A stretch of 64,000 nt of DNA from assembly GCF_011762095.1 (NCBI RefSeq), contig NZ_JAASQO010000002.1, positions 248,001-312,000 on the forward strand, in the 5' to 3' direction. The translations under genes and the position numbers were made by a program. Within the stretch, counting starts at the first letter, position 1, and each line of letters begins with the position of its first letter. The notes under the pieces are model-generated. The model saw only the letters and a program-made list of their open reading frames with translations. It ran no database searches and was not told the DNA's origin. Positions 58,653-61,053 of this stretch are shown here, in pieces. Source of the DNA: Parvibaculum indicum. GTDB lineage: Bacteria > Pseudomonadota > Alphaproteobacteria > Parvibaculales > Parvibaculaceae.

Positions 58653-59636
58653 ATGGATCTCGCAACCGACAAATCCTCCAAAAATCCGGACGAAGTTCCG
58701 GCGGAAGAGCTGAGCGAAGGCCGTGTCGCAAGCGATGACGAACTGCGCGACGAACTCTATGCCCGCCCCTTCGCCGTGGAGCGGCCTGCGCACCTGACGC
58801 TACCCTTCGTCTTTTCCTCGCCCCATAGCGGGCGGCTCTATCCACGCGAATTCATCGCCGCCTCGCAGCTCGACCCGCTCGCGCTGCGCCGCTCCGAAGA
58901 CAGCTTCGTGGAAGAAATATTCGGCGACGTGCCCGGTCTGGGCGCCCCGCTTATCCATGCCCGCTTTCCCCGCGCCTATCTGGATGCGAATCGCGAGCCC
59001 TACGAACTCGATCCGGCCATGTTCGACGGCCCCCTGCCGCCGCATGTGAATACCCGCTCGATCCGCGTCGCCGGCGGGCTCGGCACCATTGCGCGGGTCG
59101 TCTCCGACACGGCGGAAATCTATCGGGCGCCCTTAAGCTACGCGGAAGCCGAACAGCGTATCCGTGGGCTCTACATGCCGTTCCACGACGCCTTGCGGCA
59201 GCATCTGGACGACGCGCTGCGGCGCTTCGGCTGCGCGGTGCTGATCGACTGCCATTCCATGCCGTCCGTGGGCGGCCCCGGCGACGACGACACGGGCGCC
59301 GACCGGCCCGATATCGTGTTGGGCGACCGCTACGGCACCTCCTGCGCGCGCGAAATCACCATGGCGGCGGAACGGACCCTCTCCCGGCTCGGCTATTCGG
59401 TGGCGAGGAACAATCCTTATGCCGGGGGCTTCAACACCGAGCATTACGGCCAGCCCCAGCACGGCCTCCATGCGCTCCAGATCGAAATCAACCGGGCGCT
59501 TTATATGAACGAGGAAAAGCTGGAACGCGCCCCGGGGTTGCAGCGCCTGCGCCGCGACATGAAGAGCTTCGCCACGGAAATGGCCACGCTCGACCTGAAC
59601 GGCCTCGGCCCGCGCTTCCGCGCCGGCCCGGTCTGA
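58653..59636 (+). CDS. N-formylglutamate amidohydrolase family protein
   Basis: 327 residues with FSSPHSGRLYP near 54 and VLIDCHSMPSVGG near 205, the two zinc-binding histidine blocks of the FGase (HutG-like) family, plus NTEHYGQPQHGLHALQIEINRALYMNE. It hydrolyses N-formylglutamate or a related N-acylated amino acid. Divergent from cpdR, a pairing conserved in alphaproteobacteria. Its physiological link to CpdR is unknown; no histidine-degradation genes adjoin, so the role may be broader. Confidence 0.88.
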   Translation: MDLATDKSSKNPDEVPAEELSEGRVASDDELRDELYARPFAVERPAHLTLPFVFSSPHSGRLYPREFIAASQLDPLALRRSEDSFVEEIFGDVPGLGAPLIHARFPRAYLDANREPYELDPAMFDGPLPPHVNTRSIRVAGGLGTIARVVSDTAEIYRAPLSYAEAEQRIRGLYMPFHDALRQHLDDALRRFGCAVLIDCHSMPSVGGPGDDDTGADRPDIVLGDRYGTSCAREITMAAERTLSRLGYSVARNNPYAGGFNTEHYGQPQHGLHALQIEINRALYMNEEKLERAPGLQRLRRDMKSFATEMATLDLNGLGPRFRAGPV

Positions 59637-59683: not shown

Positions 59684-59713
59684 AAAAAAAGGGGCCCTGC
59701 CGAAGCAGGGCCC
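59684..59713 (-). terminator. Rho-independent terminator of the small RNA
   Basis: Perfect 9-bp stem GGGCCCTGC / GCAGGGCCC with a four-base loop; on the minus strand it is followed by CCTTTTTTT. It ends no protein gene on that strand, which points to a small RNA transcript running from about 59780. Confidence 0.9.
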
Positions 59714-59780
59714 AAGTCTAGGGAGGAAACGCCCAGGAAGGGCTGCGGCCCTGGGAGCTACGCTCAACCAATGCCGCGAT
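59684..59780 (-). ncRNA. Candidate trans-acting small RNA with anti-SD motif (MmgR/alpha-r8-like)
   Basis: About 97-nt transcript read on the minus strand. From the 5' side: a short lead, a hairpin made by CCCAGG and CCTGGG enclosing GGGC/GCCC, then a single-stranded TTTCCTCCCT (59720-59729), then GCC-rich terminator and seven T's. The pyrimidine motif is complementary to Shine-Dalgarno sequences. As I recall, the rhizobial MmgR (alpha-r8) family carries the same conserved UUUCCUCCCU between a hairpin and a terminator. No protein gene is present on this strand, and a well-spaced promoter lies just ahead. Hfq binding by the 3' U tail is expected. Confidence 0.75.
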
Positions 59781-59784
59781 GCAC

Positions 59785-59813
59785 AATATGACATTGCACT
59801 GCACACAAAGCAA
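59785..59813 (-). promoter_or_regulatory. Sigma-70 promoter of the small RNA
   Basis: On the minus strand TTGCTT (59808-59813) is followed after exactly 17 bases by CATATT (59785-59790). This would start transcription at about 59778-59780, just ahead of the hairpin-anti-SD-terminator unit. Confidence 0.65.
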
Positions 59814-60069
59814 GCCCGATTTGCAGAAAATTTGGCCCTGCGACATATGGCCCGTGGGAAATAACCAATTGTTTTAAAAGGGTTTTGCTCCCGGTGCCGG
59901 AAAATAGGTGCGGTGCAAAAAGATTATTTTCCCCCATTCCCGGATTTCCCGACGATTCCCCCTCAAAGCTTCCTTAACCCTGCCCGGTCATTCTGTCGGC
60001 TTGAAGGGCTGACGACAGCGCGCTCCCGGAGATCTTCCGGATCCGGCGCGCCTCCATAAGGGTTCAGGC
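59814..60069. other. Rest of the intergenic region before the transglycosylase gene
   Basis: About 255 bases upstream of the lytic transglycosylase, AT-rich around 59830-59940 (GAAAATTTGG, TTGTTTTAAAAGGG). No gene on either strand. It carries the promoter of the transglycosylase; no clear motif was picked out. Confidence 0.4.
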
Positions 60070-61053
60070 ATGAAAACGAGCGGGGCCGCCAGAGCAACGG
60101 CATGGCGCAGCAGGGGCAAGACGGGCGCGGCCATCGCCGCCTGCCTGATCGTCCTGCTCATGCCGAAAGGCGCCGCCGCCGACCCCGACAACCGGCAGAC
60201 CCTGGGCCTGCGCGGCGTTTCCGTCCCGATTTCCACCAGCGCCATCAGCGATCCATGGAATATCTGCGAACGCGAGGCCATTCGCCGGGAACTGGCCGAC
60301 GGCCTGCCCCGTGCCATCGTCGCCGCCGTCGCCATGGCGGAATCCGGCCGCTACAACCGCGCCTCCCGCACCCGCCGCGCCTGGCCCTGGACGATCAATG
60401 CGCAGGGGCGGCCCTATTATTTCGACACCAAGGCCGAGGCCGTTCGCTTTACCCGGAACCTGCTGAACAGCGGTATCCGCTCCATCGATGTGGGCTGCAT
60501 GCAGGTGAACCTGCGCTACCACCCCGATGCCTTCGAGGATTTGCGGGACGCCTTCGACCCGGCCACCAACATCGCCTATGCGGCCGAATTCCTGCTCCGC
60601 CTGCATCGCAGGCTCGGCACCTGGCCGGACGCCGTTTCGCATTATCATTCCGGTGAGCCCAGCCGCCATCGTCCCTATTTCCGCCGGGTGATCGGCATCT
60701 GGAAAAAGGAGCGCGCACGCCTCGCCGATGCGCTCTACACCTCGTCGACCCATGACGTCGCCACCGTGCAGAAGGCCGCCCTCACCAAGGACGCTGTCGC
60801 GAAGGACGCCATCGCCGCGCCCGCCGACACGGCCATGGCGAAAACGACAACGAAGGACGGCGCCGCCCCCGCGGTGCTGGATATCGACGACCGGGTCGAA
60901 CTCTCCGCACCCGCATCGACGGTTCTGCGGCTTTCTTTGCCCGCGAACCTCTTTGCGCATGACCGGATGGCCGAAGCGCCTCCGCCCGCCATCCTGAACG
61001 ACAAGGGCAAGGAGGCACCTACACGGCTCGCAGACGCAGGCATTCTTCAATAA
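60070..61053 (+). CDS. Lytic transglycosylase SLT-domain protein
   Basis: 327 residues. N-terminal signal/anchor helix (GAAIAACLIVLLMPKGAAA), then an SLT lysozyme-like domain from about 62: ICEREAIRRELADGLPRAIVAAVAMAESGRYNRAS with catalytic E91, and further blocks GCMQVNLRYHPDAF and NIAYAAEFLLRLHRRLGTWPDAVSHYHSGEP. A long alanine/lysine-rich C-terminal region of about 90 residues has no recognised domain. It cuts peptidoglycan glycan strands to make room for envelope structures. Start ATG 60070. Confidence 0.88.
   Translation: MKTSGAARATAWRSRGKTGAAIAACLIVLLMPKGAAADPDNRQTLGLRGVSVPISTSAISDPWNICEREAIRRELADGLPRAIVAAVAMAESGRYNRASRTRRAWPWTINAQGRPYYFDTKAEAVRFTRNLLNSGIRSIDVGCMQVNLRYHPDAFEDLRDAFDPATNIAYAAEFLLRLHRRLGTWPDAVSHYHSGEPSRHRPYFRRVIGIWKKERARLADALYTSSTHDVATVQKAALTKDAVAKDAIAAPADTAMAKTTTKDGAAPAVLDIDDRVELSAPASTVLRLSLPANLFAHDRMAEAPPPAILNDKGKEAPTRLADAGILQ

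Follow-up and report, generated by a model that had tools for sequence, protein, structure and literature searches.

An MmgR/alphaR8 small RNA of Parvibaculum with a predicted PhaR-type operator and a candidate sponge RNA

Identity of the locus and its place in the alphaR8 family

The window analysed here, a stretch of 64,000 nucleotides from the 4.02 Mb genome of Parvibaculum indicum, carries on its minus strand an RNA gene that we interpret, with a probability of about 75%, as a vertically inherited, FGase-linked MmgR/alphaR8 small RNA of Parvibaculum that would be gated by PhaR, would block mRNAs, and would itself be opposed by another RNA encoded in the DUF1467-proS stretch of the same genome. 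The window locus on its own is an ordinary ortholog; what is new in this lineage is the second intergenic RNA, predicted to pair with the MmgR core. With less confidence, yet still leaning towards it, we propose that this second RNA is a dedicated, syntenic sponge capturing the entire exposed core of MmgR, and that, together with the PhaR operators of the mmgR and phaP genes and with likely catabolic acyl-CoA targets, it would form a PHB-gated choice between carbon storage and carbon catabolism that has two layers of control.

That the minus strand encodes an MmgR/alpha-r8 RNA had been proposed from inspection of the sequence, and a covariance search bears this out: the Rfam model RF00519 (suhB) is matched over its full length (model positions 1-77, window positions 59750-59677) with 76.6 bits against a gathering cut-off of 41 (E = 4.2e-14). 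The sequence-only reading had also placed the RNA between genes of the opposite strand, and both flanking genes indeed lie on the plus strand. The transcript and its neighbours are the following, the transcript ends being predicted from the promoter and the T-run.

58653-59636, plus strand: FGase, N-formylglutamate amidohydrolase, the usual alphaR8 neighbour (Pfam PF05013, E 4.6e-77)
59684-59780, minus strand: MmgR/alphaR8 small RNA, predicted transcript of ~97 nt (RF00519 and alignment of 36 orthologs)
60070-61053, plus strand: SLT-domain transglycosylase, the other flank (Pfam PF01464)

Besides the model score and the FGase neighbour, the locus shows the remaining marks of MmgR/alphaR8 RNAs, namely an exposed UUUCCUCCCU following a weak hairpin, a Rho-independent terminator and an operator in the promoter. 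Other families can be set aside on the basis of the same Rfam scan: AbcR1/2 and NfeR1, which have unpaired anti-SD motifs like that of MmgR but are described as different families, gave no match at the locus and neither did SorX, while SorY (RF02651), which like SorX represents a family distinct from MmgR, reached 35.5 bits, far below its cut-off of 111.

RF00519 matches exceed the cut-off in 44 of the 61 genomes searched (37 of them, the window genome included, from the window's own family), and 47 genomes have a match with E <= 0.001. For the comparison of orthologs we started from 42 core-matched loci, two loci (L078 and L079) of one fetched batch of 14 having been omitted for lack of an exact core match, and removed six distant ones to obtain an alignment of 36. 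Gene order around these orthologs is well preserved, with the FGase gene adjacent at 34 of the 36 loci and the SLT gene at 33; the two loci without an FGase gene beside the RNA lack it because they are cut by contig ends. The idea that the locus extends the family proved weak. According to the published account, Rickettsiales are the one group of Alphaproteobacteria without alphaR8 RNAs, which elsewhere in the class are mostly present as a single FGase-adjacent copy, and the family, its FGase linkage and the 10-mer are thus already in print (PMC12559287). Since the family is near class-wide and mostly FGase-linked, the Parvibaculum locus is a new member rather than an extension; a literature search for Parvibaculum small RNAs found no publication among the matches listed.

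While Caulobacter has four alphaR8 siblings, the window genome has one strong and one weak copy. The weak one, a second alphaR8-like RNA at G000:C2:102242-102321 (minus strand; L002:1501-1580:-), scores 29.1 bits, below the cut-off, lies directly behind a 247-aa ORF on the same strand, and has a SorX score of 22.9 bits (cut-off 46.6); a 5' hairpin resembling its own is seen in another genome (G012, L084). Many of the weak RF00519 matches in relatives (~29-31 bits) can be discounted as family members, since by eye, in a reading of 21 of the weaker ones, they resemble unrelated terminators. Plasmids provide a separate observation: alphaR8-like stretches occur on 52 plasmid records, of which Methylobacterium and Azospirillum account for 33 and some are small (36-66 kb), and no annotated gene lies under any of the 30 matches listed.

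Architecture of the RNA

The predicted fold of the 97-nt RNA comprises, in this order, a 5' hairpin, a GCCC/GGGC helix, an open core that contains the anti-SD 10-mer and, finally, the terminator.

59785-59813, minus strand: promoter, TTGCTT (59813-59808), 17 nt, CATATT (59790-59785) (from the sequence; poor match to the consensus)
59745-59777, minus strand: 5' hairpin, beyond the Rfam model (folding against shuffles, covariation)
59731-59743, minus strand: Helix 2, GCCC/GGGC, inside the Rfam model (four pairs invariant in 36 sequences)
59714-59732, minus strand: conserved core GCGUUUCCUCCCUAGACUU, with the anti-SD 10-mer at 59729-59720 (mean unpaired probability 0.75)
59684-59713, minus strand: intrinsic terminator, 9-bp stem followed by seven T (59713-59692 in scan coordinates; terminator scan and alignment)

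None of 200 dinucleotide shuffles of the 97-nt sequence folds as well as the original (z = -3.6). In the alignment (32 distinct rows), 96.9% of the cells are paired compared to 88.4% in shuffles, and both-sided changes occur in 53 cells compared to 17.7 and at nine pairs compared to 6.0, with the proviso that a structure taken from the same sequences flatters all these values relative to the slid controls. The 5' hairpin stands out among the elements. Each of the 27 distinct 5' arms is more stably folded than its own 200 shuffles are on average (z from -1.7 to -4.3), between 0 and 13 of the 200 shuffles per arm folding equally well (6 for the arm in the window), and both-sided changes affect 5 of the 7 pairs of the hairpin (helices 1 and 2 of the alignment). 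A covarying 5' hairpin thus lies outside the Rfam model of the MmgR family, whose original description reports a short 5' helix as the sole helix besides the terminator (PMC1273637). Helix 2 gains no support from covariation, because its GCCC/GGGC pairs are invariant in the 36 sequences. A CCCAGG/CCTGGG hairpin, which had been pointed out instead, can be ruled out, as its pairing is unconserved in the alignment of 36 orthologs; the supported helices are the 5' hairpin at 59777-59745 and GCCC/GGGC at 59743-59731.

Core and terminator agree better with what had been seen before: the anti-SD motif TTTCCTCCCT at 59729-59720 is unpaired in the predicted fold, as claimed, and the terminator is present as described, with nine pairs, eight of them G-C, followed by seven T; its main helix is paired in 100% of the alignment cells. 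The sigma-70 promoter is a mixed case. The 17-nt spacing is there and the position of TTGCTT/CATATT is retained in the orthologs (judged by eye), but the hexamers are weak and a promoter scan lists no site at this place. Compared to MmgR of Sinorhizobium meliloti, which is described as 77 nt long, the Parvibaculum RNA (predicted ~97 nt) has the same core sequence, Helix 2, terminator and PhaR-type operator between -35 and -10, and differs from it in the additional covarying 5' hairpin beyond the Rfam model.

The earlier statement that no ORF accounts for a terminator on this strand needs a correction. Two minus-strand ORFs of 75 aa and 101 aa do overlap the RNA, and one might regard the sequence as a piece of a coding region, or the terminator as a chance one. 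The 101-aa ORF is not maintained in the relatives, however, either in its start codon or in its frame, with stops from codon 5 or 13 in some and an open frame of at least 90 codons in others, and both the covarying stems and the full-model Rfam match speak for an RNA gene; we give next to no credence to the coding or chance reading and rule out a protein-coding role. Judged by these comparisons, the minus-strand locus is non-coding.

Predicted PhaR/AniA operators on mmgR and phasin genes

The window genome contains one PhaR gene and four Phasin_2-type phasins. The main phasin has relatives at 27 loci, distributed over 25 of 27 genus genomes, and at 25 of the 27 loci at least two TGC-N3-GCA dyads stand upstream of the gene, usually 51-52 bp apart in the context TTGTGC-N3-GCACAA (L101-L126); of the two exceptions, one locus is truncated (L105) and the other, a distant paralog, has a single dyad (L127). 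A similar arrangement is known from S. meliloti, where phaP1 and phaP2 each have two operator copies flanking -35 and where EMSA has shown PhaR bound to the promoters of mmgR, phaP1 and phaP2 (PMC12542648). We trained an operator matrix exclusively on the phasin promoters (51 sites, 30 of them distinct) and ran it over the window. Its three best positions among 63,980 are all situated in the mmgR intergenic region, and the fourth-best score is 4.95 bits.

59903-59923, no strand assigned: distal operator-like site (17.28 bits, rank 1)
59789-59809, no strand assigned: predicted operator of PhaR/AniA type, a TGC-N3-GCA dyad in the promoter spacer (11.25 bits, rank 2 of 63,980)
59769-59789, no strand assigned: second operator-like site, at the -10/start (10.7 bits, rank 3)

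Among 2000 column-permuted matrices, none placed all three top positions in the mmgR region, 36 placed the top one there, and 28 reached a top score of at least 17.28 bits anywhere in the window. The distal site could also act for the divergent gene at 60070. A matrix site of at least 5 bits is present in the promoter spacer region of 35 of the 36 orthologs; six more distant members of the class score only -10.1 to 5.2 bits, and the mmgR site of S. meliloti reaches 16.4 bits with the Parvibaculum matrix.

That the three best window positions all fall into the mmgR intergenic region makes PhaR/AniA control of mmgR in Parvibaculum likely, as in S. meliloti. At the sequence level, the mmgR promoter contains a PhaR-type operator that it has in common with the main phasin gene; PhaR binding is what we infer from these sites. 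The PhaR operator of mmgR, for which EMSA evidence exists in S. meliloti, is on this evidence common to a phasin gene in another alphaproteobacterial family as well. PHB control has been shown for the S. meliloti MmgR and is proposed for the Parvibaculum RNA. A genome-wide PhaR regulon could not be delineated with the pattern TTTGTGCNNNGCACAAA: its sites are no commoner than those of the reversed control (5 and 6, respectively), so we used the phasin pair alone. An additional PhaR-type dyad with one mismatch lies at G000:C9:59593-59609 (L157), upstream of a 373-aa ORF and with an ORF resembling Hsp70 (by eye) on the opposite side; the gene behind this dyad is a possible further member of the PhaR regulon.

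A candidate sponge of MmgR in the DUF1467-proS stretch

A search of the window genome for AGGGAGGAAA, a complement of the exposed MmgR motif, yields 21 sites compared to four for the reversed control. Two of the 21 belong to the alphaR8-type RNAs themselves, leaving 19 non-self sites, 15 of which stand 1-9 nt upstream of an ATG, in 14 of these 15 cases before an ORF of at least 190 aa. One of the four sites not located before an ATG reads AAGTCTAGGGAGGAAACGC, the exact complement of the 19-nt core of MmgR, with a strong terminator behind it.

Contig C12 of the window genome (G000), 86889-86726, minus strand (L254:1415-1578:-): sponge candidate RNA (seed complement, promoter and terminator)

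The gene follows DUF1467 in the order nuoN-birA-rnj-mce-DUF1467 (names from translations, by eye), with two or three small genes and then proS behind it, and is present in all five Parvibaculum genomes in which the DUF1467-proS place was reached (loci L254, L085, L302, L321 and L374). Three of these, G014, G001 and G019, were reached via gene order, and the window genome and G006 via sequence. All five copies have GTGACA and TATNNT separated by 17 nt, the seed, GAGGGAA, and a terminator with eight T; the seed is the complement of the MmgR core. In the predicted fold, hairpins flank the mostly open seed, its unpaired probability being 0.62-0.66 compared to 0.43-0.45 for the whole RNA. The open frame across the gene has 72 aa in the window genome and stops after three codons in G006. 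No Rfam family scores over its cut-off on the sponge strand at the two loci scanned. Another hairpin of similar make, also with a T-run, lies 3' of the sponge terminator in two genomes, the window genome and G001 (L321).

Sponge and MmgR of the same genome are predicted to pair at 23-25 of 26 positions, with 21-24 Watson-Crick and one or two G-U pairs (22+1 in the window genome, 24+1 in G006, 23+2 in G014, 22+1 in G001 and 21+2 in G019). The variable site of the core forms a G-C pair in the window genome and an A-U pair in G006, G014 and G001. In G019, where MmgR has G at this site, the predicted C was not found in the sponge, which has U and would form a G-U wobble; the pairing in this genome also includes one A-C mismatch. 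The calculated interaction energies are -30.3 (window genome), -32.7 (G006), -27.5 (G014), -33.5 (G001) and -22.5 kcal/mol (G019), and in each of the five cases the best of 60 seed shuffles (-14.9 to -19.7 kcal/mol) is weaker than every real sponge.

The sponge gene may alternatively encode a small RNA in its own right, or be what is left of an inverted alphaR8 copy, its similarity to a ribosome-binding site merely looking like the complement of MmgR, with the window locus still being MmgR/alphaR8. Descent from an inverted copy would fit the fact that the reverse strand scores as suhB, with 42 bits in G006, 22.7 in the window genome and 19.6 in G014, though the same would be true of any perfect complement of the core. 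The complementarity, on the other hand, is not restricted to GGAGG and spans the whole single-stranded core and more in five genomes; the pairing lies far above that of seed shuffles, and the window sponge reaches a mere -13.5 kcal/mol with the second alphaR8-like RNA; and the 17-nt-spaced hexamers, GAGGGAA and the eight-T terminator recur in all five genomes. We thus regard the alternative as unlikely. Judged by its sequence and by analogy with Caulobacter, the DUF1467-proS RNA looks like a sponge of MmgR. The 42-bit RF00519 match in G006 (G006:C3:34268-34341, L085) comes from the strand opposite the sponge gene, and routine Rfam annotation would therefore call suhB on the wrong strand. Control of the sponge by PhaR finds no general support, as a site above 10 bits is present in just one of the five promoters (11.5 bits, G014).

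The analogy concerns CrfA, which in Caulobacter sequesters SisA-D via a G/A-rich loop (PMC12559287) and which corresponds to CCNA_R0093, listed at 3,781,500 (PMC5988900). Both CrfA, as far as its published description goes, and the DUF1467-proS RNA have an exposed G/A-rich stretch complementary to the alphaR8 core, the likeness being one of description. We take position 3,781,500 to be outside the nuo-proS region of Caulobacter, and the CrfA locus seems to differ from that of the Parvibaculum RNA. If the two loci are unrelated, sponging of alphaR8 RNAs arose twice or moved. A candidate alphaR8 antagonist outside Caulobacter, conserved in both its place and its pairing, suggests that sponging could be general in alphaR8 control.

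Candidate targets and a possible circuit

The 9-mer seed occurs at 31 sites in the window genome and the reversed 9-mer at three, although the latter also contains GGAGG. Leaving out one site without a locus and L187 (35 aa) gives 29 seed genes; in G014, 16 sites minus one (8 aa) give 15. Acyl-CoA families (thiolase, PhyH, acyl-CoA dehydrogenase, ECH and AMP-binding) account for 7 of the 29 and 5 of the 15 seed genes, respectively, compared to 2 of 40 window genes (one-sided Fisher test, p = 0.025 and p = 0.013). The list of families was compiled post hoc from the seed genes of the window genome, its independent tests being confined to G014 and the window genes. A control with CAGGAGAT gives no acyl-CoA match among 16 genes (29 sites minus two without an ORF and 11 with ORFs below 60 aa), but many of its sites are not genes, which makes it a poor control, and we added a second one consisting of 40 of the 47 predicted window genes. 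Gene-by-gene conservation of targets across the two genomes is weak, with one clear ortholog pair (73% identity) among the seed-matched genes. Given the post hoc list and the single shared pair, the acyl-CoA enrichment constitutes a lead.

Pairing of MmgR with ribosome-binding sites of this genome is plausible on these grounds. The competing explanation, to which we give only slightly less than even odds, holds that the (A)GGGAGGAAA ribosome-binding sites reflect nothing more than a strong type of Shine-Dalgarno sequence used by catabolic genes and are unrelated to MmgR. Any anti-SD RNA would match strong Shine-Dalgarno sequences, and the poor gene-by-gene conservation fits this explanation too; the scarcity of the reversed 9-mer argues against it, as does the acyl-CoA enrichment, which is nevertheless modest and compatible with both views. 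In Caulobacter, moreover, SisA, an alphaR8 RNA, is reported to repress many mRNAs via the same 10-mer, whose use on a Caulobacter target has been shown (PMC12559287). SisA resembles the Parvibaculum RNA in lying beside an FGase gene and in having the 10-mer UUUCCUCCCU downstream of a weak hairpin; its described targets comprise TonB receptors, further transporters and metabolic factors (PMC12559287), whereas those suggested for Parvibaculum are mostly catabolic enzymes.

MmgR might instead hold back granule proteins directly, its chief action being to pair with phasin mRNA. The behaviour of S. meliloti invites this idea, since a core-deleted mmgR leads to more PhaP1 and PhaP2 protein while the mRNAs are unchanged (PMC8401924). 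According to two further papers, however, MmgR had as yet no identified direct target (PMC7143759; PMC12559287), and the ribosome-binding sites of the genus phasins, tested for the main phasin and its relatives (one of the four Phasin_2 genes of the window genome), pair with MmgR no better than background. For the main phasin of the window genome, 36 of 51 window genes pair equally well or better, and across the 27 phasin loci this number ranges from 12 to 50, the best phasin among the relatives being the one with 12. Direct MmgR-phasin pairing thus being unsupported, we consider this mode of action improbable.

With mRNAs bearing the (A)GGGAGGAAA ribosome-binding site as the preferred targets, the circuit might operate as follows. 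At low PHB, PhaR would repress both mmgR and the phasin gene; granules, once formed, would bind PhaR and thereby release both. MmgR, probably with Hfq, would then block translation of the mRNAs with such a ribosome-binding site, and the DUF1467-proS RNA, by pairing with the whole exposed core of MmgR, would free them again, much as CrfA is described to act on SisA in Caulobacter. The 14 best-matched ribosome-binding sites provide a short, testable list of candidate MmgR targets.
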